From a virus: 50,169 bases of DNA. Position 1 is the first letter of the stretch, and the number at the start of each line of letters is the position of its first letter. The notes beneath the pieces are model-generated. The model had not been told where the DNA came from. It searched no databases and saw nothing but the letters and a program-made list of their open reading frames with translations. A program made the position numbers and the translations under genes. Positions 20,391 through 41,208 of the stretch are shown here, piece after piece. The stretch covers positions 1 through 50,169 of the IMG/VR virus record IMGVR_UViG_3300034375_011589; one strand, given 5' to 3'.

Positions 20391-21215
20391 TTATCTTCCT
20401 AAATTTTGCATAAATTGAGTAAAATACTTTTTAGCAATATCATTCAAACCAGACGATACTGATTGACCAGAACTTTCTGGTGGCACTTCACCACCTTTTT
20501 CTTTTCTACCAGAACCCCACATTTCTTTGTTTTGTTCTTCCACATCATCTAAAGTATTTTGTACCTGAGTTTTTTTCTTACCTAAAGCACCACATAAAAA
20601 GTCTCTAACTTGAGATTCTAAGTCTTGATAGAATTCTGTGTTGTCACCTAAATTAGTAATCGAATTACCAAAAATTTGTTCGAAACCTCCAGACATACCA
20701 GTAATTGACCTATTAATTCTTCTTATACCATATTCCAAAATACCTTTAGTTAGGATTGGTGCTAAAAAATTACAATTCATTAATTTAGGTAAATCTGTGA
20801 ATGGTACGTTACCCAAAGTGTTAGCCAAAACTTCTTTTAATTCACCATCTTTTATTCCCATAAAACCTAAAAGCCATCTATATAATCCTTCACGAATAGT
20901 TTCCCATATTGTCCCAAAAATTCCTTGGTTTTGAGACATTGTAAAAGCTGCTTGTTCATTTATTATTTTTTTGTTTTTTGTTAAATAAAGTGATAAATCA
21001 TCAGTGCTTATACCATTTCTAGAAAGTTTGTTTATCTCTCTAGAGAAATTTTCAAAAACAAGTTCTGGAGAATTATTCTTATTTTTTCTTTCAAACCTAT
21101 CTACCCATATATTTATTTTTCTTTCTTTTGATTCAGAAAGGGTAGTTCTCTCTTCATTTACTAGGTCTTCAATAAATGAAACTAATTCAGATTCTTTAAA
21201 TTGTAATTTAGACAT
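20391..21215 (-). CDS. Probable internal virion protein with capsid-targeting-like leader, 274 aa
   Basis: Family not recognised. The N-terminus SKLQFKESELVSFIEDLVNE (residues 2-21) matches the leader shared by several proteins here and ends in V-N-E|E. A second site, I-I-N-E|Q, is at residue 87. After that the protein is hydrophobic/amphipathic (QGIFGTIWETIREGLYRWLL), followed by a Leu/Ile-rich helical domain and a Lys/Gly-rich, disordered C-terminus (GSGRKEKGGEVPPESSGQ). Removal of the first ~87 residues would leave a membrane-active-looking product, as in ejection proteins. It is last in an operon of five leader-bearing or related genes (25001 to 20391). Confidence 0.75.
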   Translation of the reverse strand: MSKLQFKESELVSFIEDLVNEERTTLSESKERKINIWVDRFERKNKNNSPELVFENFSREINKLSRNGISTDDLSLYLTKNKKIINEQAAFTMSQNQGIFGTIWETIREGLYRWLLGFMGIKDGELKEVLANTLGNVPFTDLPKLMNCNFLAPILTKGILEYGIRRINRSITGMSGGFEQIFGNSITNLGDNTEFYQDLESQVRDFLCGALGKKKTQVQNTLDDVEEQNKEMWGSGRKEKGGEVPPESSGQSVSSGLNDIAKKYFTQFMQNLGR

Positions 21216-21227
21216 TATCTATTATTT

Positions 21228-23339
21228 TTATTTTCTTTTTTTATTTTTTAAGTCACCTTTTCCTGTTATACCATAACCGCTTTTAACACGTCTACTTTCT
21301 TTACCACTAAAATTATAAGCGTCATAACAATATTGTAGTACTTTGTATGTGTTAGGTCCACCAACCGTAGGTAACGCTTTAGATGCTGCACCTATAACAG
21401 CGATACACTCATTTTTAGTTGCTTTTGTATCGTTTATTCTTTCTAGATTTTCTAAACTTTCTTCAGCCTGTTTTTTACTACTATATCTACCAGCAAAATC
21501 TTGTATTTCTTCTTCAGCTGCAACATCTGGTTCAGGTACTACTGGAGTAGGTGTTTGTTGAGGTCTTGTTGGTCTTGTTGGTCTTGTAGGTGTTTGTTGA
21601 GGTTTAGTAGGTGTTGATGTTGTAGGTTCTGTTTCTGTAGTTGTTCTTACTTTGCTGATTTTATATTTATTATCTTCTTTACTATAATTAACAGTGTATT
21701 TTTGTTCTACGACTAATCTACTTTCTCCCAAGACTTCAGCCAAACCACTAACAGATTCTGTTAAAATTTCAAAATCTTTAACTCCCATAGCTAATGCTAT
21801 TGCAGCTCCTTGTAAAGCTGTAGGTTTTCTACTAGCTATTGTTGGGTTATCTTGAAGTAATTCATCAAGATATTCATCAGCTGTCCCCTCTGGACCTTCA
21901 ATGTCCATTAGATTTTCTCCAGTTTCATATATAGCACCATTAACATCAATATCTTTAGTTAACACCATGATATCTTCAGAAGCTTCTTCTTCATCTTTAG
22001 CCTTACCGAATACTTTAGCTAATTGAGCTTTGTCTTCTTCATCTGAAATTGTATATACGTTACCATCTGGAGTTTCAAAATAGTATTTATCATCAGAATT
22101 CTCAATATATTGAAATTGACCTAAATATTCTTCCTTACCAGCGTAGAAAACTATTGCCATAGTAGCGTTTCCAGCATTCATACCAACAAATAAATCTACA
22201 GTATTACCATCAAACAAACTTTTGAATTTTACTCTGTATGCTGGCATTCCTTCTGGTCTTTGAATTATTTTTTCAGTTTCACTTTTAATAATTCCTTCTA
22301 AATCTTTAGAATCATATATTTTTTTATCGTTAATTATTGTTATTGGTTTATCTCTCAATATGTTTACTATTGGTTGAAAATCTGATTCATTTAATTCCTC
22401 TAATAGATTTTCTAATAATGGTACATTATATTTTAATTGATATATTTTAGATAGATATGAACAATCACCTATTGTTCTAACAGCTTGGAAAGATTTGTAT
22501 ACATCTTCCTCCTCAGTACCAGCACCTTCAGTAGCTCCAAAAGTTAAGGTATCTATAATACCCTTACCAAAATATTTTTCACCACCTTCCATAGCGTTAT
22601 AAAGTGCATCAGCGATTTGTATTATTTCATTTTCTGATTGGAAAGTTACTGTTATATCACTATCTGACTTATCTAGTTCGTTCAAACTATCGTAATATTC
22701 TGGTGAAAATGCCATAGATAAGAAATCATCTTCTGATGGTTGTTGTCCACTTGCCCAAGCTTCTTGACCTGCGACAACATCACCTGGAAGTGGTGAACTA
22801 CCACCACCACTACCAAATTTACCAATTAAGGAAGCTCCCGTCCCCCAAGTAAGTAAAGCACCTAAACCTTTAGCTGCTTGTGCATTTACCAAACCTGGTA
22901 TATTTTTACCTACAGCACCCAATTTACTACCAGATGCAATTTTAGAAGCCAAACCAGACTTTAAAGCTTTACCACTTGCGGTTTGTAGACCTTTGGTTGA
23001 TACCCTTCCTAAACCTAATAAACTCTTACCCCAAGAAGGTAGTTTTGATAGTAGACCTCTACTTCCAAGAGCGGCACTACCTCTACCAATAGAAGCTAAT
23101 CCTCTTACAGCCCAAGGAGCTATTCTTGCGAGTGCACCAACTAAAGGAGCCCATTCGTTTAGTAAATGTGGTTTTTTACTTTTAATATCCGATTCTGTAA
23201 TTATTTTTAAATCATATTTACGATTTTTAATTTCTTTAGAATATAATCTTGATTCTTCTAAGGTAAAATCTTTATCATAATTATTCAAATGGTCAAATAT
23301 CCTTAATTCTTCATTAAGTGATTTTTTATTTTTATTCAT
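21228..23339 (-). CDS. Large leader-bearing virion protein with hydrophobic Gly/Ala segment and Cys-pair C-terminal module, 703 aa
   Basis: Not recognised as a known family. The N-terminal 62 residues are polar and end in LLNE|WAPL, a gp21-like site. They are followed by a Gly/Ala/basic amphipathic stretch (residues 63-185, such as LVGALARIAPWAVRGLASIG), then a folded acidic middle (200-560). A Pro/Thr linker follows, built from near repeats (TPTRPTRPTRPQQTP). The last ~60 residues (ECIAVIGAASKAL..., QYCYDAYNF, VKSGYGITGKGD) are shared with the 485 aa protein at 35842-37299. The architecture fits a packaged protein ejected with DNA: cleavable leader, membrane-active region, C-terminal module. 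An AATATTTATAA element lies 14 nt upstream. Confidence 0.75.
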   Translation of the reverse strand: MNKNKKSLNEELRIFDHLNNYDKDFTLEESRLYSKEIKNRKYDLKIITESDIKSKKPHLLNEWAPLVGALARIAPWAVRGLASIGRGSAALGSRGLLSKLPSWGKSLLGLGRVSTKGLQTASGKALKSGLASKIASGSKLGAVGKNIPGLVNAQAAKGLGALLTWGTGASLIGKFGSGGGSSPLPGDVVAGQEAWASGQQPSEDDFLSMAFSPEYYDSLNELDKSDSDITVTFQSENEIIQIADALYNAMEGGEKYFGKGIIDTLTFGATEGAGTEEEDVYKSFQAVRTIGDCSYLSKIYQLKYNVPLLENLLEELNESDFQPIVNILRDKPITIINDKKIYDSKDLEGIIKSETEKIIQRPEGMPAYRVKFKSLFDGNTVDLFVGMNAGNATMAIVFYAGKEEYLGQFQYIENSDDKYYFETPDGNVYTISDEEDKAQLAKVFGKAKDEEEASEDIMVLTKDIDVNGAIYETGENLMDIEGPEGTADEYLDELLQDNPTIASRKPTALQGAAIALAMGVKDFEILTESVSGLAEVLGESRLVVEQKYTVNYSKEDNKYKISKVRTTTETEPTTSTPTKPQQTPTRPTRPTRPQQTPTPVVPEPDVAAEEEIQDFAGRYSSKKQAEESLENLERINDTKATKNECIAVIGAASKALPTVGGPNTYKVLQYCYDAYNFSGKESRRVKSGYGITGKGDLKNKKRK

Positions 23340-23353
23340 AGTTCTTTTTTTAT

Positions 23354-23389: not shown

Positions 23390-24346
23390 TTATTTTAAAG
23401 CATCAACAAAATCACCTTGGTCTTGTTTATTCATACTATTAAAGAAATCCATCCCATCTTGTGAATTTAAAAATTCTTCAAATTTACTATTTAATTTATT
23501 TTCACCCATACCTTCTATTGCTGCAGCACCAACACCAGTACCCATAAGATAATTTATAAATTTACTATATAATTTTGTTCTATTTAGTAGTCCTTTTCTT
23601 TGCATTCTAGTCAACAAACCACCACTTTGTCTAAACACTTTGATTTTACCAGTTTGTTTCGCTGCTTGTGTAAATAGATTAAGATAAGTTTTAGCATCTT
23701 TTGAGAAATTTTTGAATCCTGGTATTTTACTTATTTTACCTAATATATTCCCTAAGAAATTTTGTGTTGTTGGATTTTTCATAGTTTCTAACACCGCTTT
23801 ACCAGCTTTTGTTTTTCCCATTTCAGCAGTTATCTTGGATGCATTACCACTTTTTAATCCAGCATTAATTATTTTTGTGTTGATTTTACCACTTTTCATT
23901 ATGACAATAAATGGTTTAGCTATAGCATCTCCAACATAAGGAACTAAGGATATCAAACTTAATATACCATATAAAATATCACCTTGTCTAAAATATGAAA
24001 CAGCATTAATGGCATCAGCAACACCAGTTGGGTCTACAACACCAACAAAATCAAGAAATGTGTTGTACCATTTACTTTCATTTAATAAATCTATATCAAC
24101 TTCATCATCATCATATTCTTCATAATCTTCATCTTCCCATAATGGATTAGCTTTACCTCTACTGATAGAATAAGTGTCAGCCCATTTACCAATACTACCT
24201 GCTGGATTAGCGGGTCCTCTAGTTAAACCACTTTCCCAAGTCTTAGCACCAGTAGTACCACCACCTTCACTACCTTCTTCTTGTTCGTTAATCATTGTTT
24301 TAATGATTGTAATTAATTCAGTTTCTGTTACTTTTACTTTTTTCAT
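23390..24346 (-). CDS. Leader-bearing virion protein with pre-toxin-like DPTG segment, 318 aa
   Basis: The leader KKVKVTETELITIIKTMINE (2-21) is followed by Q, and a second site, L-L-N-E|S, is at residue 90. Directly after the second site comes VVDPTGVADAINAVSYF (103-119) and then GILSLISLVPYVGDAIAKP (127-145). This DPTG...A-x-N-A...G-D...P-x-V-G-D pattern is the pre-toxin segment found before C-terminal toxin domains in bacterial polymorphic toxins. The remaining ~170 residues are Lys-rich and helical (NLFTQAAKQTGKIKVFRQSG) with no toxin family I recognise. It is coupled to its upstream neighbour (2 nt gap). Cleavage at E90 would release a toxin-like fragment inside the capsid. Confidence 0.75.
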   Translation of the reverse strand: MKKVKVTETELITIIKTMINEQEEGSEGGGTTGAKTWESGLTRGPANPAGSIGKWADTYSISRGKANPLWEDEDYEEYDDDEVDIDLLNESKWYNTFLDFVGVVDPTGVADAINAVSYFRQGDILYGILSLISLVPYVGDAIAKPFIVIMKSGKINTKIINAGLKSGNASKITAEMGKTKAGKAVLETMKNPTTQNFLGNILGKISKIPGFKNFSKDAKTYLNLFTQAAKQTGKIKVFRQSGGLLTRMQRKGLLNRTKLYSKFINYLMGTGVGAAAIEGMGENKLNSKFEEFLNSQDGMDFFNSMNKQDQGDFVDALK

Positions 24347-24348
24347 TA

Positions 24349-24681
24349 TTAACTATTCATTTTAACGTCTACACTAACCACAACATTAACTTTACCATCG
24401 TTAGTTTTCCACTTCCAAGTCTTTTTTAGTTTATCATCTTCTAAATTTTCTGTAGTACTTTTATTTCTTAAACTAAAAGCACCTTTAGTAGCTTCTAAAT
24501 GACCAACAATATCATTAAAGGTTTTTTTCGCTATTGGATTAGCATTAGCATCTGTGGATTTAGGTTTAGTTTTATTTTTCATCGAAGAAGTTCCTTTTTT
24601 TTCTTCCAATTCATAACCTAATGTTAAATTTTCTATTATTGAAACTAATTCTGATTCCGTAAGTCTTATTACTTTTTTCAT
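24349..24681 (-). CDS. Leader-bearing small protein, 110 aa
   Basis: Not recognised. It begins KKVIRLTESELVSIIENLTL, the shared leader pattern (E-x-E-L-x-x-I-I), but lacks the terminal N-E; possible cleavage sites are the Y-E-L-E/E region at 23-27. The rest is Lys/Asn-rich with a C-terminal beta-like segment (KVNVVVSVDVKMNS). It overlaps the upstream 107 aa gene by 4 nt (ATGA-type coupling) and precedes the DPTG protein by 2 nt, so it belongs to the same operon. Confidence 0.7.
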   Translation of the reverse strand: MKKVIRLTESELVSIIENLTLGYELEEKKGTSSMKNKTKPKSTDANANPIAKKTFNDIVGHLEATKGAFSLRNKSTTENLEDDKLKKTWKWKTNDGKVNVVVSVDVKMNS

Positions 24682-25001
24682 CTACTTATTTTTTTGTTTA
24701 TCCATTCTTTTATATATTGTTTTGAGATAGTGTTAATTTTTTTATTGATTGTTGAAGTTAAATAATCTTCATCATCCGACATTTGACAAATAGCTTCTTC
24801 AATTAATTGTTCTTTAAAACCTCCTTTAATTAAATTATTTGCTTCTGTTAAATTAAAACCACCCCTATTATCATAAATAGTATCAAGAAAGGTAAATATA
24901 TTTTTTTTAAGCCCTTCTTCTGTATAATGCAGTTTTCGTTTATTAACTATATCATTTACGATATGTTCTAGATATAAACTTAATTTAAACGAATTACCCA
25001 T
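24678..25001 (-). CDS. Hypothetical helical protein, 107 aa
   Basis: Not recognised. The start is set at the ATG at 25001 (MGNSFKLSLYLEHIV) rather than the in-frame ATG at 25058, because an ATATTTATA element at 25015-25022 lies 13 nt upstream of 25001 and inside the longer reading. Charged and helical, with no leader motif. It is the first gene of the leftward five-gene operon and is divergent from the lipoprotein gene; the two promoters overlap around 25015-25054. Confidence 0.65.
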   Translation of the reverse strand: MGNSFKLSLYLEHIVNDIVNKRKLHYTEEGLKKNIFTFLDTIYDNRGGFNLTEANNLIKGGFKEQLIEEAICQMSDDEDYLTSTINKKINTISKQYIKEWINKKISR

Positions 25002-25014
25002 TTTAGAGTTTTCA

Positions 25015-25022
25015 TATAAATA
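25015..25022 (-). promoter_or_regulatory. Late-promoter-like element heading the internal-protein operon
   Basis: Sense-strand ATATTTATATGAAAA, 13 nt upstream of the ATG at 25001. It ends next to the -33 box of the divergent host-type promoter. Confidence 0.5.
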
Positions 25023-25054
25023 TTTGTATATTACAGAATAATTGATTATATTTG
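25023..25054 (+). promoter_or_regulatory. Bacteroidetes-type promoter TTTG-N20-TATATTTG for the lipoprotein gene
   Basis: The -33 TTTG is at 25023-25026 and the -7 TATATTTG at 25047-25054, with 20 nt between them. This is the same geometry as at 46155-46186. It points rightwards to the ATG at 25101. Confidence 0.75.
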
Positions 25055-25100
25055 ACAAACTAAAGCAATATAAACACCATTAAAATTTAAAAAATTAAAT

Positions 25101-26015
25101 ATGTATAATAAAATTATTACTTATCTGTTATTAATAACACTAATTTTTAGTAGTTGTGAGAAATATGAATTGACTGAGGGTTACCCAACAATTGAGAATA
25201 CTTTGTGGGTTTTAAATAGTGGTAATGTATATGTAGAAAATTTGACAAATGGTGAAATGGTATATTATAACCATTTTGATAATTCACAAGATATTTCTAA
25301 TTTAGATATATTTGGTGGTTCACAAATAGACATTGATAACATTGAATTAGGTGTGACTACTTGGTATTTTAATGATGGTATATTTGTTTTAAATAATGGG
25401 AACACTTACGAATATAATAGTAGTGGTAGTGGTGTTGCAAAAAATTATACATTATTAGGTATACCACCATATGGGTCTGTTAGACACTTAGGTGTAATTT
25501 ATCTAGATGAAAACATTTTACAAGTTAAAATATATGAATCTAATGAATCTTATGATGGTGATAATTACCATTATTATACAGTATTAACATTTGTTAGAGA
25601 TGGTTATAGTTGTAATGATTGTGATTTTGAAAGTAGATTAGATTATACTTTTGGTGGTACCATCACTATAAATATTGAAGATATTCCAGGTCATTTACAA
25701 TTAAGTGGTACTACTTGGGTGATAACTCGTTATGATAACGGTACAACACCTTATTATCCAAACGATACCATTAATTTCATAAGTGGTGTAGCATATTCAA
25801 TAAATGGTTTAAATACTAACACTTATTCATTATCTAACAATGTCGGTAATAACCTATATAACTTAACACTTTACGAATGTATTACTATTGGTGGTAATTA
25901 TTCTGGTCAAGTATCTTTAAGTTCTATAATTGATGGTGAATTAAATAATATTCTAATGAATGGTATTTTTGGGACAAACAATTCAATTAATTTATGGATG
26001 GAAAAGATAAATTAA
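25101..26015 (+). CDS. Predicted lipoprotein, 304 aa
   Basis: The N-terminus has a lysine, a hydrophobic core and a lipobox: KIITYLLLITLIFSSC, with the modified Cys at ~19, followed by E-K. The mature part is Asn/Gly/Tyr/Thr-rich and beta-strand-like. It contains two lipocalin-like NTLWVLN / GTTWVITR repeats, each starting a half of the protein (residues ~33-160 and ~200-300), which suggests an internal duplication. Phage lipoproteins often act in superinfection exclusion or surface modification; that role is inference. It is driven by a host-type promoter, so expression may be early or independent of the late genes. Its stop overlaps the convergent 48 aa gene by 4 nt. Confidence 0.8.
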   Translation: MYNKIITYLLLITLIFSSCEKYELTEGYPTIENTLWVLNSGNVYVENLTNGEMVYYNHFDNSQDISNLDIFGGSQIDIDNIELGVTTWYFNDGIFVLNNGNTYEYNSSGSGVAKNYTLLGIPPYGSVRHLGVIYLDENILQVKIYESNESYDGDNYHYYTVLTFVRDGYSCNDCDFESRLDYTFGGTITINIEDIPGHLQLSGTTWVITRYDNGTTPYYPNDTINFISGVAYSINGLNTNTYSLSNNVGNNLYNLTLYECITIGGNYSGQVSLSSIIDGELNNILMNGIFGTNNSINLWMEKIN

Positions 26016-30728: not shown

Positions 30729-31376
30729 TTAAACTACCAAATTAAACTCTTTAGAGACAGTATCCCAATTAACAACTTTCCAAAAATTCTTAATATATTT
30801 TTTACGATTAGACATGTAATTAAGATAGTAAGCGTGTTCCCAAACATCTAAACCCAATAAGGGTTTACCCAAATCACTCATCAATGGATTATCTTGATTA
30901 GGTGTAGTTACAACTTTTAGTTTACCATCTTTATATACCAACCAACACCATCCAGAACCAAAGACTTTAATAGCTTGTTCACTAAAAACTTTTTTTAATT
31001 TAGATAAACTACCAAAATCTTTGTCTATTTTTTTACTAAGTTCTAAAGATGGTTTAGTTGATTTTGGTGTAATGTAATCCCAAAATAAACTGTGATTGTA
31101 ATATCCACCAGCGTTGTCTCTAACAAAAGTATTGTATTTATCTATATTTTTTATTATAGCTAAAATGTCAGTTGGAGGATTTTTTCTATGTGAAAAAGAT
31201 TCATTTAATTTATCAGTATAACCTTTATAGTGTCTATTGTAATGTTCCCACATAGTTTCTGGACCAACAAATTCTTTTAAGTCACTATAATCATATGGTA
31301 ACTTAACTCTTTTGAATAGTTCATTATTTTCTTCTAACAATAATTTATATTGTGATTCACTTATTACAATATTCAT
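30729..31376 (-). CDS. sodB: Fe/Mn superoxide dismutase with N-terminal leader
   Basis: 215 aa. All four metal ligands are in place: H45 (TMWEHYNRHYKGY), H95 (GGYYNHSLFWDY), and D177 and H181 (LGLDVWEHAYYLNY). GSGWCWLVY is also present, so dismutase activity is plausible; Fe versus Mn preference is not clear. The first ~19 residues (MNIVISESQYKLLLEENNE) are absent from ordinary SODs, which begin near the following LPYDYSDLKEFV. They match the shared leader pattern of the window and end in N-N-E|L. The start codon overlaps the stop of the cupin-like gene (ATGA). A phage SOD could protect the virion or the infected cell from superoxide; packaging in the capsid is suggested by the leader. Confidence 0.93.
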   Translation of the reverse strand: MNIVISESQYKLLLEENNELFKRVKLPYDYSDLKEFVGPETMWEHYNRHYKGYTDKLNESFSHRKNPPTDILAIIKNIDKYNTFVRDNAGGYYNHSLFWDYITPKSTKPSLELSKKIDKDFGSLSKLKKVFSEQAIKVFGSGWCWLVYKDGKLKVVTTPNQDNPLMSDLGKPLLGLDVWEHAYYLNYMSNRKKYIKNFWKVVNWDTVSKEFNLVV

Positions 31377-31634: not shown

Positions 31635-33050
31635 TCACCACCATGTGCCTCCTCCACTAAGTCCTAACGCTTTAGCGTAACGTGGGAGGCGACATGACCA
31701 ATAACCTGCCTTACATTTATCATTATGTCGTCCTTCTGAACATCCATGTCTAGCGTTAAAAGATTTTTTAGCTTCAGGGTTATTTAATTTAGCTTTTAAA
31801 CCACCCGAACCAAATCTAATTAATTTAATACCTCTTGGATTTGTATCTGTTTTCTTAGCACAACCAGCAACATAAACTTTATAGGCTTTGCCACCTGAAG
31901 AGTCTCTTTGTGGTGAACCAGATTTTTTACCTTTAAATTTATCTTCTTCTGTTAAATACTCAATGTCTTCCATTGGAATATCTAACCAAACTTTCTTATT
32001 TTCAAATATAGCTTTTTCACCTATATTTGTTTCAATTAATTCTTTATCTATAGAATTTAATTCAATATCACCATTATAATATAACTCTCTAGTTTCATTG
32101 ATTAAATTAAAAAACCCCTCTGACCCCCATCTATAAATGTTTTCAACTAACGGAATATTATTATTTATATGATATTGTAAACCTTCAGATATAGATTCAT
32201 TTTTAGAAGCTTTTTTACCCCAAGACTTTCCTTTAGTTTTTTTATATTTTTTACAAGCACTTGGAGTAGGTCTACAAGCTGGATATTTACTTCTTTTTTC
32301 ACCTTCTTGTCTTCCACAAGATTTGTAACCACCTTTTCCGTCAGGTGAATTACAATCTACCCAACCTCCAGTACTACCTTTAGCGCCCTTTCTTTTGAAC
32401 CAATCTCTTAAACTTGTTTCAGAACTAGGTTTTGAAGTTAGTTTTCTTTCATTTAATTTTTCACCTTCTTTTGACCTAGTTTTCTGATTCTTGCAAAATT
32501 GTTGCATGGTAAATCCTTTCGGGTTATCACAATTTTTTGCCCTTTTTTCTCTTTCTGATTTGGACCATTTTTCTTGGATTTCTTCTGATTCGTTGGTTGA
32601 ATTACCCCAGTTCTTAGCACCTACTTTTCTACACTTAACTAAAGCACCCGATGCATAAGCAGAAGGCCAGACTTTATATCTACTTTTTACTTTGTAATAA
32701 CACGCGTCTTTTTTCTTCTTACTTTTTTTTTTTGATTCGTCTAACTCTCTATCTATTTCATGTCCTTGACCTTGATTACCCATAATCCTTCTCAAAAGAC
32801 CATTAAATTCATTCATTGGGTCAACTAATTGGTTTCTAACATAACTTAATTCAGACCTTAACCTATCTTGAACTATAATACCAGGTATTAATCTTGTAAG
32901 TATATCCATACCTTGTTTTAAATGTGTATGAGCCTCCAAAATTTGTTTAATTATAGACGATTCATCTTGCATACCAATAATAGGGTCATCATAACCACCA
33001 ATTTCATTAATTAATGCTTTATATTGTTCTTCTGATAATTTAATTTTCAT
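31635..33050 (-). CDS. Leader-bearing protein with three basic Cys/Gly modules, 471 aa
   Basis: The leader MKIKLSEEQYKALINE ends at I-N-E|I (E16). Three small basic, Cys-containing modules follow. First is DACYYKVKSRYKVWPSAYAS with ALVKCRKVGAKNWG (~115-150). Second is the DUF5872-like GWVDCNSPDGKGGYKSCGRQ with YPACRPTPSACKKYKK (~230-275). Third is the C-terminal KLIRFGSGGLKAKLNNPEAK, FNARHGCSEG, YWSCRLPRYAK (~405-460). These modules recur in phage and algal-virus proteins of unknown function; basic Cys/His-rich composition suggests nucleic-acid or metal binding. With a cleavable leader it is a candidate DNA-condensing internal head protein. A TATTTATT element lies 19 nt upstream. Confidence 0.8.
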   Translation of the reverse strand: MKIKLSEEQYKALINEIGGYDDPIIGMQDESSIIKQILEAHTHLKQGMDILTRLIPGIIVQDRLRSELSYVRNQLVDPMNEFNGLLRRIMGNQGQGHEIDRELDESKKKSKKKKDACYYKVKSRYKVWPSAYASGALVKCRKVGAKNWGNSTNESEEIQEKWSKSEREKRAKNCDNPKGFTMQQFCKNQKTRSKEGEKLNERKLTSKPSSETSLRDWFKRKGAKGSTGGWVDCNSPDGKGGYKSCGRQEGEKRSKYPACRPTPSACKKYKKTKGKSWGKKASKNESISEGLQYHINNNIPLVENIYRWGSEGFFNLINETRELYYNGDIELNSIDKELIETNIGEKAIFENKKVWLDIPMEDIEYLTEEDKFKGKKSGSPQRDSSGGKAYKVYVAGCAKKTDTNPRGIKLIRFGSGGLKAKLNNPEAKKSFNARHGCSEGRHNDKCKAGYWSCRLPRYAKALGLSGGGTWW

Positions 33051-33158: not shown

Positions 33159-33623
33159 TTGAAATCACTACCTAAAGAAATTACAAAAATAATCAAAAAA
33201 AAAGTATTCACACTTAACACCATAACTGAAGGTAGAAATGAAGGTGTGGATGTTAAAATTAGAATTCAAAGAATTGGTGTTTCGTGTGAAAAATGGCTTG
33301 ATGAAAATCCAATAAATCGTTCTAGTTTTAATGAATTATATGTTAATCTTGTGGTTTCTGGTAAAATTACTCATAAAAATGGTTGGGGTAATCCTATAAT
33401 TCTTTCACCTATAGAAGAGGTTGCTGTTGTTAAAAGAAACACTATTAATCTTTATAATATTGTGTGGGGTCGTGAACATAACAAAAAAATTAGAGACCAT
33501 ATACGTAATAATATTAAAAACGAAATCGCTAACTATTTAAAGTTGTTCGGAATATCTACACGTATAACGTGGAACAATGAAAGAAAAATTAAAATAAAAA
33601 ATATTTCTTGGGGTAACGTTTAA
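33159..33623 (+). CDS. Hypothetical basic protein, 154 aa (TTG start)
   Basis: Not recognised. No ATG is available; an in-frame stop lies 16 nt upstream and TTG (33159) is the best start (MKSLPKEITKIIKKKVFTLN). The leader-like end T-I-T-E|GR falls at residue 24. The body is Lys/Arg/Asn-rich and mixed alpha/beta (NLYNIVWGREHNKKIRDHIR). Codon use is normal for the phage. It is convergent with the 211 aa gene, overlapping by 4 nt at the stops. Confidence 0.6.
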   Translation: MKSLPKEITKIIKKKVFTLNTITEGRNEGVDVKIRIQRIGVSCEKWLDENPINRSSFNELYVNLVVSGKITHKNGWGNPIILSPIEEVAVVKRNTINLYNIVWGREHNKKIRDHIRNNIKNEIANYLKLFGISTRITWNNERKIKIKNISWGNV

Positions 33624-34255
33624 CGATTTTTCTTAACATACCCCAACCTTTCTTCAACCTTATTTACTTCTTCTACGAATTGGTGTAAAGACTCTTGGTT
33701 GATGTATCTATTTACTTCGTTCAAATGGTTAACCACTAAACCATGTCTATCATCTGATAATGCGTGGTTTTCTGGTTCCATATTTAATTGTCCTTTATCA
33801 GAACTTAAAGTAGCCCATTCATTTAATAAATCATTATCATCTACATCATCATCGTTACCAGGTTCAAACATTCTAACCAACGCTGAAAATTTTTCAGGGA
33901 AATAAGTTCTAAGATATATTCTTTTTGCATGGTCTACTAAACCTTCATAATCAGTTCGATACTCGTCCCAATCGTCCCAATAGAAATCAACTGCCGATTC
34001 AACTGCAGATTGGAACTCAGGAGAAAATGGACTTGGCATTGTATCAGGTTCTCCTAAATCTCGGTGTATTGATTGGTTGAAATAATATTGGTCTGAACTT
34101 CCCCATTCATTTAATTGTTTTTTATTAGATTCATTAAGTGAAGAATGTAATTTTCTAATTCTTGAAGTTTCAGCAGCAGAATTATTATAATGTACTGGAT
34201 TGGCTCTTCTCATATTAAACTGATGACCTTCCCAACGTGGATGATTTAAATTCAT
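33620..34255 (-). CDS. Leader-bearing virion-type protein with two LNE|W sites, 211 aa
   Basis: Residues 30-50 contain the second leader type, SRIRKLHSSLNESNKKQLNE, followed by W; a second site, L-L-N-E|WATL, occurs near residue 147. Between them is an aromatic, acidic domain (FYWDDWDEYRTDYEGLVDHA). Cleavage at both would release a ~97-residue middle piece. Family unknown. A CTATTTATTATA element lies 14 nt upstream, the only copy whose preceding base is not a purine. Confidence 0.7.
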   Translation of the reverse strand: MNLNHPRWEGHQFNMRRANPVHYNNSAAETSRIRKLHSSLNESNKKQLNEWGSSDQYYFNQSIHRDLGEPDTMPSPFSPEFQSAVESAVDFYWDDWDEYRTDYEGLVDHAKRIYLRTYFPEKFSALVRMFEPGNDDDVDDNDLLNEWATLSSDKGQLNMEPENHALSDDRHGLVVNHLNEVNRYINQESLHQFVEEVNKVEERLGYVKKNR

Positions 34256-35841: not shown

Positions 35842-37299
35842 TTAATTTCCTTTTCCTTTTAGGCCATAAGCTTTTTTAACTTTTTTGGAACCATCACCAA
35901 TTTTTCCAAAATTGTAACTATTATAACATTGTTCTAATGTAGATGTGTCACTTACTCTAACACCTTTTTTAATACCAGCAGCGGCTGTAGCGATTAAATC
36001 CATACATTGTTCTTTAGTTGGTTGTTGACTAATTGCCTGTTCTAAATCTTTTACTTGGTTTTTTAAAGTTTCTGCATCAGATTTTTCTTTCTCAACAGTA
36101 ACCATGTCTAATTTCTTTTCTTCTTGTTGTGTGACTTCTTCACCAGCAGCTTTACCAGTAGCTTCACCAGTAGCTTTTGATTGCCCACTTAACATATCAA
36201 TTACAGCTTTGTTAAATACTTTTTCACCACCAACTTGGCCTACAGCGGTTTCAGTTTTAGGGCCAAACATACCATCTACTTTTAATTTAGGATTTACTTT
36301 GTTTGATTTATTTAATTCTTCTTGTGCTTTTTTAACTTCTTCACCTTTATCACCTTTTTTGAATTCACCTTTACCAGCAGCTATATCTGCATATGTCACA
36401 TCTGTTCTAGTAAATGAACCACTAAGTCCACTTGTTCCCGAAGGACCACTTGTTCCTTTTGTAACCTCTTTACCAGCAACTTCAGATTTTGGAATTAATT
36501 TAATTGAACCGAAAGTTTGTTCAAAAATATATCTTGATTCAGACAAAGTTAATTCTTCATCATCAAGAGTAAGGTCACCTTCACATTCTATAGTACCGGA
36601 ACTTTTATTACCACCAATTATAGCTACATATTTTCCAGCTGTACTAACTAACATCTTGTCCCCATTTTCTAATGTTATAAGAACTTGGTTATCCTTTTCT
36701 TTATATGGGTAAATAATTTCTGATGCAATGTCTATTGTGTCTTGAACACAAGGATATTTTATAAATATTCTTCTTACTGAAGCTTTACCTTCACCTCTAG
36801 GTTCTTCTGTTTTTGACATTTCACCTCTAGGTTCTTCTGTTTTTGACATTTCACCTTTAGATATTATATTTAAACTGCTCGGATATTTTTTATTTGGTGC
36901 TGGTGTTAAATCAATAGTATATTTATTACTTTTTTTATCTAAAATAATCTTTATCTTTCGGATTACCTCAACATCAGTAGGTATTGTCCTATCAAATTCA
37001 CTTTTAATTAACTCATTTAGACCATCTTCACCAACCATTTTAGTGGTCATTAATTTTTCTATCATTTCATCGAATCTATCGTCAGGGATAAGGTTAAACG
37101 CATTTAGAAATTTATCCTCATTTGTTCCCGGTCCTTGTGAGGCTCTACTTAATTCATTTTTGAGAGAAATAAAAACATCATCCTCATTTTGTTCAGACAA
37201 ATATTGTCTAGTCTTATTTTCTGTTAAAGTTTTACCTCTATCGTAATCAATAAGTCCCATCATTTTTCTGATGTCTTCGTTAATTAAATTTTTTTTCAT
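35842..37299 (-). CDS. Leader-bearing protein with peptidoglycan-binding-like domain and Cys-pair C-terminal module, 485 aa
   Basis: The N-terminus KKNLINEDIRKMMGLIDYDR runs to L-T-E|N (27) and L-S-E|Q (36). A region with a duplicated GEMSKTEEPR decapeptide follows at ~155-175. Residues ~310-350 (KKGDKGEEVKKAQEELNK, LKVDGMFGPKTETAV) match the PG_binding_1 repeat that attaches to cell-wall peptidoglycan. A helical linker leads to a C-terminal ~60-residue module (QCMDLIATAAAG, EQCYNSYNFG, VKKAYGLKGKG) shared with the 703 aa protein. No hydrolase motif is visible. It may be a packaged or tail-associated wall-binding protein. The element at 37333 lies 33 nt upstream. Confidence 0.8.
   Translation of the reverse strand: MKKNLINEDIRKMMGLIDYDRGKTLTENKTRQYLSEQNEDDVFISLKNELSRASQGPGTNEDKFLNAFNLIPDDRFDEMIEKLMTTKMVGEDGLNELIKSEFDRTIPTDVEVIRKIKIILDKKSNKYTIDLTPAPNKKYPSSLNIISKGEMSKTEEPRGEMSKTEEPRGEGKASVRRIFIKYPCVQDTIDIASEIIYPYKEKDNQVLITLENGDKMLVSTAGKYVAIIGGNKSSGTIECEGDLTLDDEELTLSESRYIFEQTFGSIKLIPKSEVAGKEVTKGTSGPSGTSGLSGSFTRTDVTYADIAAGKGEFKKGDKGEEVKKAQEELNKSNKVNPKLKVDGMFGPKTETAVGQVGGEKVFNKAVIDMLSGQSKATGEATGKAAGEEVTQQEEKKLDMVTVEKEKSDAETLKNQVKDLEQAISQQPTKEQCMDLIATAAAGIKKGVRVSDTSTLEQCYNSYNFGKIGDGSKKVKKAYGLKGKGN
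36791..36850 (-). repeat. Two perfect 30-nt tandem copies in the 485 aa gene
   Basis: The unit at 36791-36820 is repeated exactly at 36821-36850, encoding GEMSKTEEPR twice. Identity at every base implies a recent duplication. Confidence 0.9.
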
Positions 37300-37456: not shown

Positions 37457-37576
37457 TTATTTTTTTTGTGATAGTACTTTATGTCTTGGAACAACTTTAC
37501 GTCTACTATTCTGTTCTTTTAAAACTAATTTACTTAGTCGTTTTAATTGTCTTTCTGTAATTAATATTTTAGCCAT
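37457..37576 (-). CDS. 39 aa basic mini-protein consisting of the shared leader plus a short tail
   Basis: The ORF reads MAKILITERQLKRLSKLVLK, then E|Q and the tail NSRRKVVPRHKVLSQKK. The first 21 residues are the same leader pattern as in the larger proteins (L-I-T-E-x-Q-L...L-x-E at position 21). The predicted mature peptide is only 18 residues and strongly basic. Codon use is phage-like and the ORF follows normal spacing to the 178 aa gene (20 nt). A packaged basic peptide that neutralises DNA is one possibility. Confidence 0.6.
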   Translation of the reverse strand: MAKILITERQLKRLSKLVLKEQNSRRKVVPRHKVLSQKK

Positions 37577-37596: not shown

Positions 37597-38133
37597 TTAT
37601 TTTGGCATATAATCATAAATTTTATCACCATAAAGTCCATACAATCTTTTAATTATAGCTTCTGGATTTTTTCTCATATACCTTAAAACATCCATAGGGA
37701 TATAAGGACCGTATTTATCACCAAATACTCCTCTAATATCTTTTTCTCTTGGTTGAGTTGGTATTTGAGGTTCTACAGTAAAGTCTTGTTCCATCATGTC
37801 CTGTGTTGAGATAATTAAATTCATATTTTGTGAATCTGGTTTACAAATTTGGTCTTTTTCACACCAGTACATCCCTTTAGGGCATCCTTTACCTTCATGG
37901 TGGTCATATGTGAAAGAATCATTTACACTATCCATCATACTGTCCATTTTAGCTATATGTGATTCCATCCAATCATCTAATGGTTGACCTTTTTCAAGTT
38001 TATTAAACATACTTTGAGCTTTTCTTGCTATATTGTATAATTGTGATTTTGCCATATAAGAAGAATCGTGACCTTCACTAATAATTTGTCTTAAAACTTT
38101 TCTAATGTTTTTGTTTGATACTTTTCTTTTCAT
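37597..38133 (-). CDS. Leader-bearing protein with LDDWMESHIAKMDS domain, 178 aa
   Basis: The leader KRKVSNKNIRKVLRQIISE ends at I-S-E|G (E20). Residues ~30-75 contain KSQLYNIARKAQSMF and LDDWMESHIAKMDSMMDS, a helical segment I recognise from several T4-like phage proteins of unknown role. A Cys motif GCPKGMYWCEKDQICKPD follows (~82-99). The C-terminus (YGPYIPMDVLRYMRKNPEAI) is helical. An AGTATTTATATA element lies 4 nt before the ATG. Confidence 0.75.
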   Translation of the reverse strand: MKRKVSNKNIRKVLRQIISEGHDSSYMAKSQLYNIARKAQSMFNKLEKGQPLDDWMESHIAKMDSMMDSVNDSFTYDHHEGKGCPKGMYWCEKDQICKPDSQNMNLIISTQDMMEQDFTVEPQIPTQPREKDIRGVFGDKYGPYIPMDVLRYMRKNPEAIIKRLYGLYGDKIYDYMPK

Positions 38134-38157: not shown

Positions 38158-38967
38158 TTATACTTCTTTTATTGATAAAATTTCTTGTTCTATTGGCTCC
38201 GAGTGGTACACTTCCCTATCAAACCCCTTACTATCATCATGGTCGTACCAATTATATAAATTATCTTCATCGTATTTTACTGTATTATAAACATAGTCTT
38301 TATCATAACCCACAACAGTTACAGTATATTTATAAGCTACCCTTTCAAGGTCACTTTGTTCCATATAAACTTCAAAAGTTTTTATTTCGGGTATTTCTAA
38401 TTGGTTAACATTAGTGATGGTACCATCTTTTATACCATCATAATTTTTAGGGTTTTTAAGTGTAAACCACATTCTTGTGCCCAGACCGTCTGATGAATAG
38501 TTTATATCTTTAACACCAAATAATTTAACTATGGGGTCTATAATTTCCGCCCAACGGTAATGTTCATCATCGTTGATTTTTTCTATTTTTTCCCAAGGGG
38601 TGTATTCGACTATTGTTTTTATTAATTTAAAAAACATGTCTTTATTTATAGTCTCATTATAATAACCCTGATTATCGCCCCAACCTTTATAATGTTGTGA
38701 CCCAATAAGAGTAGTAGTGGAGTCTTTTAATTTATCTTCCCCACTTCTAATATTATCTATGACTTCATTAATTGGTACTTTTTCGAACATATCTTCAAAT
38801 ACTTGTTGTATTGCATTAATAACAGCGTATTGGTCTCCACCCCAATTATCTTTGTGACGTTCAATAATTTTATCTGTGAGAGCACGAACATCCATTTCTA
38901 ACAACTCCCATTTGTCTTGTTGGTTATCCCAATATTCTCTTAAAACTTTACGGATATCGTTTTTCAT
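38158..38967 (-). CDS. Hypothetical protein with IRKVLRE leader, 269 aa
   Basis: The N-terminus KNDIRKVLREYWDNQQDKWE carries the I-R-K-V-L-R variant of the shared leader, without a clear x-x-E end; possible sites are near residues 11-20 or P-I-N-E|V at ~68. The body is globular, aromatic and acidic, and ends in EPIEQEILSIKEV. Not recognised. The element at 38972 lies 4 nt before the ATG. Confidence 0.7.
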   Translation of the reverse strand: MKNDIRKVLREYWDNQQDKWELLEMDVRALTDKIIERHKDNWGGDQYAVINAIQQVFEDMFEKVPINEVIDNIRSGEDKLKDSTTTLIGSQHYKGWGDNQGYYNETINKDMFFKLIKTIVEYTPWEKIEKINDDEHYRWAEIIDPIVKLFGVKDINYSSDGLGTRMWFTLKNPKNYDGIKDGTITNVNQLEIPEIKTFEVYMEQSDLERVAYKYTVTVVGYDKDYVYNTVKYDEDNLYNWYDHDDSKGFDREVYHSEPIEQEILSIKEV

Positions 38968-38971
38968 ATCT

Positions 38972-39064: not shown

Positions 39065-39134
39065 TCTTTTTGCTTTAACGCATGCTGCTATAATATATAT
39101 AGTGATTTTTTAGAAAATCAAAAAAGGATATAAA

Positions 39135-39305: not shown

Positions 39306-39342
39306 TGTATTAGATTTTAGTGTAAATATAAAAATAAATAAT

Positions 39343-39350
39343 CAAATATA
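39343..39350 (-). promoter_or_regulatory. Bacteroidetes-type -7 box for the PspC-like gene
   Basis: Sense-strand TATATTTG, 38 nt upstream of the ATG at 39305. No clear -33 TTTG. It is divergent from a second TATATTTG at 39373-39380 on the plus strand. Confidence 0.45.
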
Positions 39351-39372
39351 TAGTTGTTTTGATATATTTTTT

Positions 39373-39380
39373 TATATTTG
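39373..39380 (+). promoter_or_regulatory. Bacteroidetes-type -7 box (rightward)
   Basis: TATATTTG followed by TAC, the same as before tmRNA. A TTG lies 16 nt upstream. It points at an ATG at 39402. Confidence 0.5.
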
Positions 39381-39401
39381 TACTACAAAATAAAAATAAA
39401 T

Positions 39402-39581
39402 ATGATAATACAATTTAAACTAGTTATACCTAATCCTAGGTACAAAAAAAGAAATTTTTTAGGTAAAAAAAATCAATATTTTTTTGAGTCATCTAAATCT
39501 TTGTCCTTACGTTCAGATAGAGAATTAAAATTTCGACCATCTGTGGACCTTAACATTTCTGATTTTAACCAACAGTCATAA
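39402..39581 (+). CDS. Doubtful small ORF downstream of a host-type promoter
   Basis: 59 aa, MIIQFKLVIPNPRYKKRNFL at the start. The first 24 codons look coding. The remainder overlaps the antisense 62 aa gene and has shadow-like codon use. The promoter at 39373 argues that something rightward is transcribed. It may be a real short gene, a truncated remnant, or an antisense RNA against the minus-strand gene. Confidence 0.3.
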   Translation: MIIQFKLVIPNPRYKKRNFLGKKNQYFFESSKSLSLRSDRELKFRPSVDLNISDFNQQS

Positions 39582-39661
39582 TGAAATGAATCATCTAAGT
39601 AGTCATCATTAAGTGATTGGTTTTCTCTTTCTATCATAAATAAATTTTTCATTTTTCCCAT
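39473..39661 (-). CDS. Small acidic hydrophilic protein, 62 aa
   Basis: It begins GKMKNLFMIERENQSLNDDY and contains DDSFHYDCWLKSEMLRSTDG. Codon choice (GAT, GAA, AGA, TTA) is typical of real genes here, better than on the opposite strand. Not recognised. No promoter element is clear upstream. Confidence 0.5.
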   Translation of the reverse strand: MGKMKNLFMIERENQSLNDDYLDDSFHYDCWLKSEMLRSTDGRNFNSLSERKDKDLDDSKKY

Positions 39662-39715
39662 AATATTTTTTTTTATAAGGATATATAAAAATTAATATAA
39701 AGTACAATTACTCTA

Positions 39716-39723
39716 TATTTATT
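39716..39723 (+). promoter_or_regulatory. Late-promoter-like element before the 81 aa gene
   Basis: Plus-strand ATATTTATTATATAA, 11 nt upstream of the ATG at 39735. Confidence 0.45.
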
Positions 39724-39734
39724 ATATAAAAAAG

Positions 39735-39980
39735 ATGTCTAAAATTATACTGACAGAGAAACAAGTAAATGAGTTATTTAATAAACTACAAGAAGAAGAA
39801 GTAGATTTAGATAACTATGAAGCTCCTTTTAGTAGTGATGATTTTATTAATTGGGTAAACTCAGAATATGATTTAGATTTATTACAAATAGTCAGTAGTA
39901 AAATACAGGAAAGAATAAATTTCCTAGAAACAATAATAAGTGCAGCTACTCGAAAAAAGATTAAAGGGTTTAGACCTTAA
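39735..39980 (+). CDS. Leader-bearing small protein, 81 aa
   Basis: The N-terminus SKIILTEKQVNELFNKLQE (L-T-E-x-Q pattern, L-Q-E|E at 20) is the shared leader. The remainder is acidic then basic (YEAPFSSDDFINWVNSEYDL ... ATRKKIKGFRP). The only leader-type gene on the plus strand with its own RTATTTATW element. Function unknown; candidate internal head protein. Confidence 0.65.
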   Translation: MSKIILTEKQVNELFNKLQEEEVDLDNYEAPFSSDDFINWVNSEYDLDLLQIVSSKIQERINFLETIISAATRKKIKGFRP

Positions 39981-40074
39981 TTTCCAATAAACACTTTTTT
40001 TTACCATCTTCATAGACATCTAATTGAGTTGTGTGATAACAAACTAAATGATGGTGAAAATGTTTAATTTTTAA
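39970..40074 (-). pseudogene. Possible start-less small ORF
   Basis: On the minus strand an open frame reads KHFHHHLVCYHTTQLDVYED, then GKKKCLLEIKV and stop. Codon use is convincing, but no ATG, GTG or TTG precedes it; only ATT or ATA could start it. Either a non-standard start or a decayed gene. It occupies most of the gap between the 81 aa and dCMP deaminase genes. Confidence 0.25.
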
Positions 40075-40076
40075 AA

Positions 40077-40084
40077 TATTTATA
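40077..40084 (+). promoter_or_regulatory. Late-promoter-like element before dCMP deaminase
   Basis: Plus-strand ATATTTATATTA, 29 nt upstream of the ATG at 40114. Unexpected for an early-type metabolic gene, so it may be a chance match. Confidence 0.35.
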
Positions 40085-40113
40085 TTATTATCTTATTTAA
40101 ATTATATTTAAAA

Positions 40114-40575
40114 ATGAAAAAAGATAATATTTCAACTGATTGGGATGATAGATTTATGAATTTAGCTTCACACATATCTAAATGGTCTAGAGACCCTAAT
40201 AGAAAAATTGGTGCTGTGATTGTGGGTGATGACAATACAGAAAAATCTATAGGTTATAACGGTTTACCTAACAATGCTGATATAAATAAACTTGATAGAT
40301 ATGAAAAACCACAAAAATATATGTGGGTAGAACACGCTGAAAGAAACGCTATTTATAAAGCTGGGAAAAATGGTGTCCAATTAGAAGGATGTAAAATATA
40401 TGTAACATATTTCCCATGTGTGGATTGTGCTAGAGCAATAATTCAGTCTGGTATAAAAGAAGTGTGTTCACCAAAACCTAACTTTACACACCATAGGTGG
40501 GGTGAATCTTGGAAAATATCACAAGAAATGTTTAAAGAATGTGGTGTGAACGTTAAATATATAGAAAATGAATAA
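40114..40575 (+). CDS. cd: Deoxycytidylate (dCMP) deaminase
   Basis: 153 aa. The zinc deaminase motifs are H74-A-E76 (WVEHAERNAIYKAG) and P-C102-V-D-C105, with the family start MNLASHISKWSRDPNRKIGA. It converts dCMP to dUMP, feeding the thymidylate synthase encoded at 46.7 kb; a thymidine kinase lies between them. Length and order of motifs match T4 Cd/ComEB-type enzymes. It overlaps the next small gene by 8 nt. Confidence 0.95.
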   Translation: MKKDNISTDWDDRFMNLASHISKWSRDPNRKIGAVIVGDDNTEKSIGYNGLPNNADINKLDRYEKPQKYMWVEHAERNAIYKAGKNGVQLEGCKIYVTYFPCVDCARAIIQSGIKEVCSPKPNFTHHRWGESWKISQEMFKECGVNVKYIENE

Positions 40576-40777
40576 AGATAAATTTTGGCATGAATATGAT
40601 TCAGTTAACGATAATGACTTATTAAATTGGTTCACTAATCTAACTGAAATAGATAAAAATAAAATAAGAAATAGAGTTAAACAATTAAACGTAGAAATAA
40701 CCCATGGGGAATACTACGATGGTTGGACTTTAGATGGATTGATTAAAGAAAAAGAAAAACTTTCTAAATTAATATAA
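40568..40777 (+). CDS. Hypothetical small protein, 69 aa
   Basis: Begins NKDKFWHEYDSVNDNDLLNW. Acidic, helical, ending in a Lys/Glu-rich helix (LIKEKEKLSKLI). Its start overlaps the dCMP deaminase stop, so translation is coupled. Not recognised. Confidence 0.65.
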   Translation: MNKDKFWHEYDSVNDNDLLNWFTNLTEIDKNKIRNRVKQLNVEITHGEYYDGWTLDGLIKEKEKLSKLI

Positions 40778-40788
40778 AATTAATTATA

Positions 40789-41208
40789 TTATTTTCTCCA
40801 TTTTCTTGACCCTCTCATTTTTTTTGGAGTTTCATCTAATTCCATATCTAAATTACCAAATAAGTTAACTAAAGAATCTGGTAAAACATCACTTTTCTCT
40901 TCGTAGTCCATAAAATCAACTTCTTCATAAGGTTCATCCATCATATCATATAATACAATATCATCTTCTAAGTTAAAATCACCAAAACCACCTATTTTAC
41001 CACCAGTAATATCTACTTCATTTGGTAAATCTACTGTTAATTCAACACCAACTATATTATCACCTCTAAAATTATTAGTTAAATCACCACCTCTTTGCCA
41101 AGCTTTAGTTGTTTCATAAGAACCTGACGATGAAGATGATGTTTGTTCTTGTAAATGAAGTTTTCTTATACGATTTTTTTCACTTTCTTTAGTATATAAT
41201 TTTTCCAT
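40789..41208 (-). CDS. Leader-bearing acidic protein, 139 aa
   Basis: The leader EKLYTKESEKNRIRKLHLQE ends at L-Q-E|Q (E21). The R-I-R-K-L-H core is the same as in the 211 aa protein at 33620-34255. The mature part starts with a Ser run, then a very acidic domain (DDIVLYDMMDEPYEEVDFMD) and a basic end (KKMRGSRKWRK). Function unknown; candidate internal head protein. An AATATTTATATA element lies 13 nt upstream. Confidence 0.7.
   Translation of the reverse strand: MEKLYTKESEKNRIRKLHLQEQTSSSSSGSYETTKAWQRGGDLTNNFRGDNIVGVELTVDLPNEVDITGGKIGGFGDFNLEDDIVLYDMMDEPYEEVDFMDYEEKSDVLPDSLVNLFGNLDMELDETPKKMRGSRKWRK

Follow-up and report, generated by a model that had tools for sequence, protein, structure and literature searches.

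We found that in the IMG/VR virus record IMGVR_UViG_3300034375_011589, and in related phages, many proteins whose bodies are mostly unrelated to each other begin with short N-terminal leaders that end in [LIVM]-x-E. The window analysed here is the whole record, 50,169 bases in length; on its minus strand lies a head cassette of T4 type. We consider these leaders very probably to be T4-like capsid-targeting propeptides, which would dock cargo in the prohead core and be removed by a gp21-type protease. The first-pass annotation of this stretch had proposed modular leaders that load many different proteins into the head, and this interpretation is supported by a homologue of T4 gp21, by a motif shared with the major capsid protein (MCP), by the exchange of leaders between homologous bodies, by the gene order of one relative (G020) and by the match of one leader class to the scaffold protein. 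The whole analysis is inference from sequence; leader exchange is its strongest result, and the comparisons indicate that at least four interchangeable leader classes are in use.

Leader classes in the window and in related phages

Relatives were taken from a scan of viral contigs, of which the best 80 of 306 were used. The comparison set comprised 21 longer contigs, 13 loci with a superoxide dismutase (SOD) gene and 2 loci around the gene at 37597-38133, and MCP gene loci came from two further branches (160 in all, at least 80 per branch). Some contigs share overlapping sequence (G003/G004, G005/G024, G007/G008, G017/G018/G019 and G022/G023), starts of open reading frames (ORFs) were picked by simple rules, and some N-termini may be wrong. 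The longer, near-identical record G001 (70 kb) extends into the scaffold and MCP genes, which were named by position and sequence. By their terminase the named relatives are distant, with about 27-30% identity among the matches listed and about 28% for Flavobacterium phage immuto. Two nucleotide searches of named phages with related loci returned no match, nor did tblastn of named phages with a consensus leader of 23 amino acids, a query too short for that method.

We distinguish four main classes. Class A reads K-x-(L/I)-(T/S)-E-x-(E/Q)-(L/Y)..I..(V/I/L)-x-E, class B M-K-x-(L/I)-I-K-K-I-L-(R/K)-E, class C S-E-x-E-K-N-R-I-R-x-L-H..E and class D E-I-K-R-x-(K/Q)-x-(I/L)-(M/A)-G-(L/I)..(L/I)-x-E. 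Because the classes were defined partly by regular expressions, families defined by their bodies and training sets with relatives left out carry the argument. The class A hidden Markov model (HMM) was trained on 33 non-redundant leaders, without those of the window, G001, G003, G004, G005 and G024 and without false positives of the regular expression, such as G007 81223 and G020 16800 (NUDIX-like, named by eye).

Translation places the twelve N-termini proposed to carry leaders at the gene starts listed below, eleven on the minus strand and the one at 39735 on the plus strand. The seven that had been assigned to a type A are exactly the top seven of the 77 window N-termini under the left-out class A HMM, where at most 1 of 7,700 shuffles attains the score of any one of them; with three near relatives included they score 15.1-31.1 bits against a shuffle maximum of 12.4. 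The proposed type B, covering five genes, proved heterogeneous: 38133 (11.9 bits, 2/7,700 shuffles) and 38967 (9.1 bits, 3/7,700) belong to class B in the form M-K-x-x-I-(R/K)-K-x-(L/I)-x-E, and 41208 (23.2 bits) and 34255 (15.3 bits), both at 0/7,700, belong to class C through E-K-N-R-I-R-x-L-H. The fifth, 37299, found no support as a class D leader (1.3 bits, 325/7,700) and falls outside the listed best matches of the class B and class C HMMs. Enrichment over shuffled N-termini, set as a test beforehand, was found for eleven of the twelve proteins, and the division into two types gave way to at least four classes.

21153-21215, minus strand: class A leader, residues 1-21, ..LVNE then E, of gene 20391-21215; HMM 13.4 bits, 1/7,700 shuffles
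24284-24346, minus strand: class A leader, residues 1-21, ..MINE then Q, of gene 23390-24346; HMM 23.1 bits, 0/7,700 shuffles
24601-24681, minus strand: class A leader, about residues 1-27, ..ELEE then K, a less regular site, of gene 24349-24681; 27.1 bits, 0/7,700
31329-31376, minus strand: class A leader, residues 1-15/16, ..LLLE then E, of the Fe/Mn SOD gene 30729-31376; 13.8 bits, 1/7,700
30729-31376, minus strand: Fe/Mn SOD with leader; SOD Pfam domains, 5e-41
33003-33050, minus strand: class A leader, residues 1-16, ..LINE then I, of gene 31635-33050 (KVKSRYKVWPSAYASGA-type body, phrog_727); 23.4 bits, 0/7,700
37514-37576, minus strand: class A leader, residues 1-21, ..LVLKE then Q, of the 39-codon ORF 37457-37576; 19.9 bits, 0/7,700
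39735-39794, plus strand: class A leader, residues 1-20, of gene 39735-39980; HMM 13.5 bits, 1/7,700 shuffles
38074-38133, minus strand: class B leader, residues 1-20, KNIRKVLRQIISE then G, of gene 37597-38133; 11.9 bits, 2/7,700
38935-38967, minus strand: class B leader, residues 1-11, MKNDIRKVLRE then Y, of gene 38158-38967; 9.1 bits, 3/7,700
41146-41208, minus strand: class C leader, residues 1-21, ESEKNRIRKLHLQE then Q, of gene 40789-41208; HMM 23.2 bits, 0/7,700 shuffles
34106-34255, minus strand: class C motif RIRKLH at residues 32-37 of gene 33620-34255; HMM 15.3 bits, 0/7,700 shuffles
37219-37299, minus strand: candidate leader, NEDIRKMMGLI..TLTE then N, statistically unsupported, of gene 35842-37299; class D 1.3 bits, 325/7,700

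The final Glu had been placed at residue 20 or 21 in six proteins, and we find E21 in 24346, 21215, 37576 and 41208 and E20 in 39735 and 38133. The protein at 24681 has no Glu at either position, its first candidate site after residue 17 being E27. The gene 20391-21215 has a second site, L-S-E then S-K, with L26-S27-E28-S29-K30 invariant in three aligned orthologues; residues 1-11 of the product of 38158-38967 are likewise invariant in three orthologues, and gene 39735-39980 has an orthologue in G004 at 68% identity. Starts like that of 37576 open ORFs of 150 amino acids in G004 and 426 in G024, and 37457-37576 is possibly a truncated cargo gene. A body related to that of 37597-38133 (44%) carries a class D leader in G014, and G024 has an N-terminus almost identical to that of 35842-37299. 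The motif of 34255 lies at residues 32-37 and not, as had been thought, at the N-terminus; L-N-E sites follow at E42 and E50, and the match to a relative runs from residue 45 (residues 45-152 of the query). This protein is also a mosaic, with residues 45-152 resembling an internal part of a longer G017/G018/G019 protein and residues 144-211 a different G024 protein.

Nine of the twelve leader proteins, together with 21228-23339, were scanned against Pfam and PHROGs, and 40789-41208 against PHROGs only. Among the scanned leader proteins, domains were found only for the SOD, for 35842-37299 (endolysin/peptidoglycan-binding type) and for 31635-33050 (phrog_727 type), and weak matches were not used. 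Homology of the window SOD to solved SODs starts at about residue 20, with the listed matches beginning at residues 16-25. The product of 35842-37299 also resembles orthologues of 21228-23339 at about 28-30%, through similar C-terminal parts, and its peptidoglycan-binding match is weak. AlphaFold2 models of 20391-21215 (mean pLDDT 54.9) and 38158-38967 (34.3) were too poor for a fold search.

Upon extending the search to related phages, as had been suggested, we observed leader patterns in 18 of the 20 contigs beside the window (G001 was left out as near-identical); G020 alone has 20 pattern matches in 284 ORFs, of which one or more are false positives. The same leaders are shared by proteins with unrelated mature parts. 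A sigma-70 factor with regions 2 and 4 (G020 84511-85050, L167:4511-5050; Pfam 7e-14 and 5e-13) starts with a class B leader, which suggests that the virion may contain a transcription factor. Further leader-bearing proteins are an AAA_33/zeta-toxin-like P-loop (kinase-like) protein (G025 24636-25304), an M23, SLT and peptidoglycan-binding hydrolase (G021 54728-56170) and five HAD-like 'FDWDDN' sequences named by motif, three of which were scanned and had no Pfam match. The KVKSRYKVWPSAYASGA family (phrog_727) is also found behind leaders in relatives, and the record of one cyanophage member is annotated as a T4-like structural protein of cluster T4 GC0119. This annotation was not counted as virion evidence, T4-GC119 being named once, as a hypothetical protein, in the main text of the cyanophage genome and proteomics paper (PMC3037559).

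Two side observations concern the range of leaders. The 868-residue protein G021 120721+ starts with class C and contains, at residues 237-248, another leader that is class D-like and precedes LTE then Q; from its sequence this protein looks like a polyprotein of two cargoes. Three different proteins of immuto (L211, 80000-129000), gp092, gp077 and gp076, carry yet another type of leader, which reads FDLKKFLVENKLTxNS(R/K)LLKE or varies slightly from it.

Leader exchange and the predicted cleavage motif

Homologous bodies carry leaders of different classes. The bodies of G025 23307+, which has a class B leader (MKNIIKKILREETRYLNE), and of G026 57601-, which has a class A leader (MQIKLTESQVKKLMMFQPGNEINLDE), are 90% identical over 210 aligned amino acids, and those of G007 16864- and G022 43036+ are 88% identical with the same class B/class A swap. 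SOD has a class A leader in the window, G004 and G005 and a class B leader in G007, G021, G022, G023 and G025, and the SOD bodies are 67-73% identical despite this difference. In the 'YMFFSNL' family, 20 distinct sequences divide into about 8-9 with A-like and about 11-12 with B-like leaders, split by eye and a crude pattern. Additionally, immuto gp095, which starts MKKSELVKLIKEELNIQ (A/B-like), and L260 1266+, with ..EAKRWQQLAGIITE (class D), have bodies 66% identical after residues 16 and 21, respectively. Even in a single genome, G014, two genes have a stretch of 40 residues in common (35 identical), which stands at the end of and behind a class D leader in one and a class A leader in the other. 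The terminase-adjacent family, represented in the window by 6034-7395, has seven distinct leaders of several kinds, all with [LIVMF]-x-E directly before AP(I/V)DYGD; neither this leader nor the relation described below to the scaffold protein, which is encoded outside the window, had been noted in the first-pass annotation. The junction between exchanged leader and body is at or near [LIVM]-x-E. Exchange pairs were sought among the matches listed and only the named pairs were used, many others being terminase or start-choice artefacts; the survey applied a stricter pattern, which left some class A starts unlabelled, that of the window SOD among them.

The junction motif was counted in nine body-defined families, after dropping segments shorter than 6 residues and KVKSRYKVWPSAY-type segments longer than 60 residues (the window's own included). 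The count was restricted to positions beyond residue 9 because an L-x-E near residue 8 of class A inflates a simple motif count. Under this restriction, [LIVMF]-x-E within 12 residues of the body was found in 66 of 69 distinct leader segments against 27 by shuffling. Class B leaders of SOD have a first site, K-K-I-L-(R/K)-E in most, and a second, (L/I/F)-(L/I/V)-x-E then A in most, just before the SOD domain; the residues between the two sites vary.

The same motif marks the capsid protein, where [LIVM]-x-E precedes the predicted mature domain in every one of 138 distinct MCPs; the next residue is A in 81, Q in 23, S in 18, T in 11, V in 2, E in 2 and N in 1. In an alignment of four MCPs with T4, the Glu of this site falls on the invariant column of T4 gp23 Glu65, the maturation site in T4, and the MCPs are of gp23 type, as in the head lineage of T4-like myophages. 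An ending in L/I-x-E or a close variant is thus found both in the body-defined leader segments and in the MCPs. The matching gp21-like protease had been placed at the start of the window, and the gene there matches phrog_207; T4 gp21 and the full-length G001 copy are 35% identical (E 2e-23), and in G001 the protease gene stands beside the portal, scaffold and MCP genes. The relevant part of the head cassette is as follows.

2-541, minus strand: head maturation protease, gp21-type, 5' part (the gene runs off the window); phrog_207, E 3.8e-37
2133-3941, minus strand: portal protein of the same head cassette; phrog_213, E 1.8e-66
4282-6006, minus strand: terminase large subunit; phrog_2, E 1.4e-41
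7348-7395, minus strand: leader, residues 1-16, ..FKKNLRE then AP, of the terminase-adjacent protein 6034-7395; 7/7 distinct sequences

These counts bear on a reading in which the leaders are docking or assembly peptides for part of the virion that stay uncleaved, the [LIVM]-x-E ending being merely part of an amphipathic helix. Class A does form a short helix at residues 8-19 in a low-confidence model, and acidic leucine-rich peptides often give L-x-E, shuffling alone putting one near the body in 27 of the 69 segments. Two hydrophobic residues before x-E, however, are found near the body in 50 of the 69 segments against 8.9 expected by shuffling, more than five times the expectation, body homology begins at or just past the motif, and the MCP maturation boundary has the same motif, so that we regard uncleaved peptides as unlikely.

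Scaffold resemblance and gene order

In G001 the scaffold gene lies between the protease and MCP genes. In the window's clade, the N-terminal part of the scaffold (..EIEELVKESLNE then Q) can be aligned by eye to class A leaders, and the C-terminal end (..RIKEMMGIVK, ..RMREIMNKL) is similar to class D leaders (..EIKRTKEIMGLLTE). An HMM of the scaffold C-terminus ranks G014 89393- best of 1,337 N-termini at 14.6 bits; 13,370 shuffles reach at most 8.7 bits, a score equalled by the second-best N-terminus, and 0 of 3,390 internal fragments reach 6. Scaffolds of the immuto-like clade terminate with R(M/W)QKLAGIIK or variants of it, and the class D leaders there have the form KR(M/W)Q-x-LAG(I/L)(I/L)-x-E. 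Here 9 of 789 N-termini, from 6 loci, match the clade's own scaffold C-termini at a score of at least 33. The corresponding counts are 0 of 844 for two other clades and 1 of 138 for a mixed rest group, and none of 1,293 internal segments or 1,771 shuffles reaches that score.

In the reverse direction, an HMM of 6 class D leaders searched against 4,785 proteins finds 39 scaffold C-termini among its 40 best non-N-terminal matches. In the window's clade the first match of the reverse search is the internal second leader of the 868-residue protein, and matches 2-4 are scaffold C-termini from two contigs (L323 is the same as G024). Since their leaders were chosen through scaffold resemblance (the LAG pattern, earlier HMM matches), the reverse searches add little independent weight. 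By these comparisons scaffold mimicry is well supported for the immuto-like clade and only suggested for the window's own, and the likeness of class D to the scaffold C-terminal peptide suggests docking at the scaffold's binding site. As a side observation, the first of the 40 matches is L274 8234+, a non-scaffold protein of 160 amino acids with KRMQLLAGL at its C-terminus, which is perhaps a C-terminal version of the tag.

Gene order links leaders to the head genes in G020, where the interval from the protease gene (104290) to the scaffold gene (108824), which the MCP gene (110065) follows, holds leader genes at 105015, 105627, 106011, 107461 and 107805 and a leader-like start at 105314. In T4, gene 22 directly follows gene 21, at the place where G020 has leader genes. 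This clustering speaks against the proposal that the leaders address proteins to somewhere else in the infected cell, for instance a replication compartment or a membrane, instead of the head. That several cargoes are enzymes or a sigma factor and that many leader genes are outside the head cassette would fit such an address, but similar leaders stand on the terminase-adjacent head-cassette protein (the 6034-7395 family) and one clade has class D leaders that match the scaffold C-terminus, and we find a destination outside the head very improbable. Recent duplication of a single gene start, as a mobile 5' module that persists although it has no function, deserves almost no credence: the class A leaders of G020 are nearly identical, yet 92 of 305 identical-residue codon pairs among seven of them differ synonymously, and diverged phages retain the peptide pattern in front of different bodies.

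Several other genes of the window were observed alongside. A DnaK-like gene (12170-14104) and a ClpA/ClpC-like AAA protein gene (14228-16270), both named by eye, are direct neighbours close to the head cassette and are kept in relatives. The tail fibre gene 16271-18940 has (T/I)ASGxxSHAEG-type repeats and is matched by phrog_25468 over seven stretches. The plus-strand gene 25101-26015 has a lipoprotein-like signal by eye and is also kept in relatives.

Probable head targeting, known systems and meaning

If the leaders are capsid-targeting propeptides, a short N-terminal leader would bring freshly made cargo into the prohead core, the class D leader docking at the scaffold's binding site by its likeness to the scaffold C-terminus. 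The gp21-type protease would then cut after [LIVM]-x-E and free the cargo, and the trimmed protein would be packaged, staying in the head of the virion with the DNA. By analogy with the T4 internal proteins and Alt, it would probably be injected into the next host cell. Protection in early infection and take-over of transcription by SOD, sigma factor and kinase-like cargo at entry are guesses.

A number of observations count against this reading or narrow it. The N-terminus at 37299 is unsupported by any HMM tried, and two of the 20 contigs, G009 and G017, have no pattern match. In class A leaders an [LIVMF]-x-E also occurs nearer the start, at residues 7-9, and therefore the motif alone does not fix the cut. 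Scaffold resemblance is uneven between clades: the KDLM clade has 1 of 561 N-termini at a score of at least 30 against 0 of 561 shuffles, the DLIxR clade 5 of 283 against 2 of 283 with no clear excess, and for the window's clade the evidence consists of one clear N-terminus and a partly circular reverse search. Many leader genes of G020 and G007 are distant from the head cassette. The upstream regions of leader genes show no enrichment of the T4 late-promoter octamer (3/60 versus 66/998, eight records). Families and contigs also overlap in descent, so that the counts are not independent. Finally, virion proteomics of a leader-carrying phage was not found in the open-access literature.

The closest known system is that of the capsid-targeting sequences (CTSs) of T4, carried by IPI-IPIII and Alt and cut by gp21, where a short N-terminal propeptide ending in L/I-x-E likewise precedes unrelated proteins and the protease is homologous. 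The T4 starts of gp24 (MAKINELLRE), gp22 (MLKEQLIAE) and Alt (MELITELFDE) resemble class B by eye, peptides too short for a claim of homology. According to the portions of PMC9026906 used here, the first ten residues of the IPIII leader suffice for packaging, and the positions critical for targeting and for processing differ. A 2025 paper (PMC12373910), in the part used here, reports that Ip1-3 share only the N-terminal leader and that many T-even ip genes were found by that signal. The principle is therefore already known, T4 CTS peptides being established and leader-based detection of ip genes published. Unlike the single related leader family of the T4 internal proteins, there are at least four classes here, and unlike T4 CTSs they are exchanged on near-identical bodies, precede enzyme and sigma-factor cargo such as SOD, include a class that matches the scaffold C-terminus and also occur on a terminase-adjacent protein of the head cassette.

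The giant phages SPN3US and phiKZ are similar in that many head proteins have N-terminal propeptides cut after Glu (PMC10052503, PMC9026906, both in part). SPN3US has nine substrates according to PMC10052503, and on eight of them the propeptide is N-terminal; two of these propeptides are short, at 20 and 24 residues, and the rest span 111-254. In the passages drawn on, no shared interchangeable leader families are described for giant phages.

The leader families reported here were not found described in the open-access literature, subscription papers and preprints being outside the scope of that search. As far as this literature shows, the new elements are the leader families of these phages and how many classes they form, the exchange of leaders, cargo that includes enzymes, and the scaffold-end match of one class. 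We regard the system as an expanded, multi-class version of that of T4, with targeting by scaffold mimicry as its newest part. With encapsulin cargo-loading peptides and P22 scaffold fusions, too, enzymes unrelated to each other enter a shell of HK97 type by means of a short peptide; those systems are not known to involve phage head maturation or protease removal of the peptide, both of which are proposed here.

A wider reading, which we offer tentatively and towards which, taken as a whole, we lean slightly less than away from it, is an open cargo code with many labels. Exchangeable tags would make any gene a virion-delivered effector, at least one class would mimic the scaffold C-terminus and evolve with it clade by clade, sigma factor, SOD and zeta-toxin/kinase-like cargo would act at the first moment of infection, and some genes would encode polyproteins with an internal second tag.

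If the leaders are indeed head-targeting propeptides, the tag would be a computable label for virion-delivered proteins in a large uncultured phage group, and scans of N-termini would list candidate early effectors, counter-defence proteins included, beyond the reach of homology. Scaffold-end mimicry would offer a testable mechanism for the docking of T4-type targeting sequences, and the leaders would be ready-made tags for loading foreign enzymes into phage heads. Flavobacterium phage immuto is a named, isolated carrier of these leaders, which makes the central claim testable.

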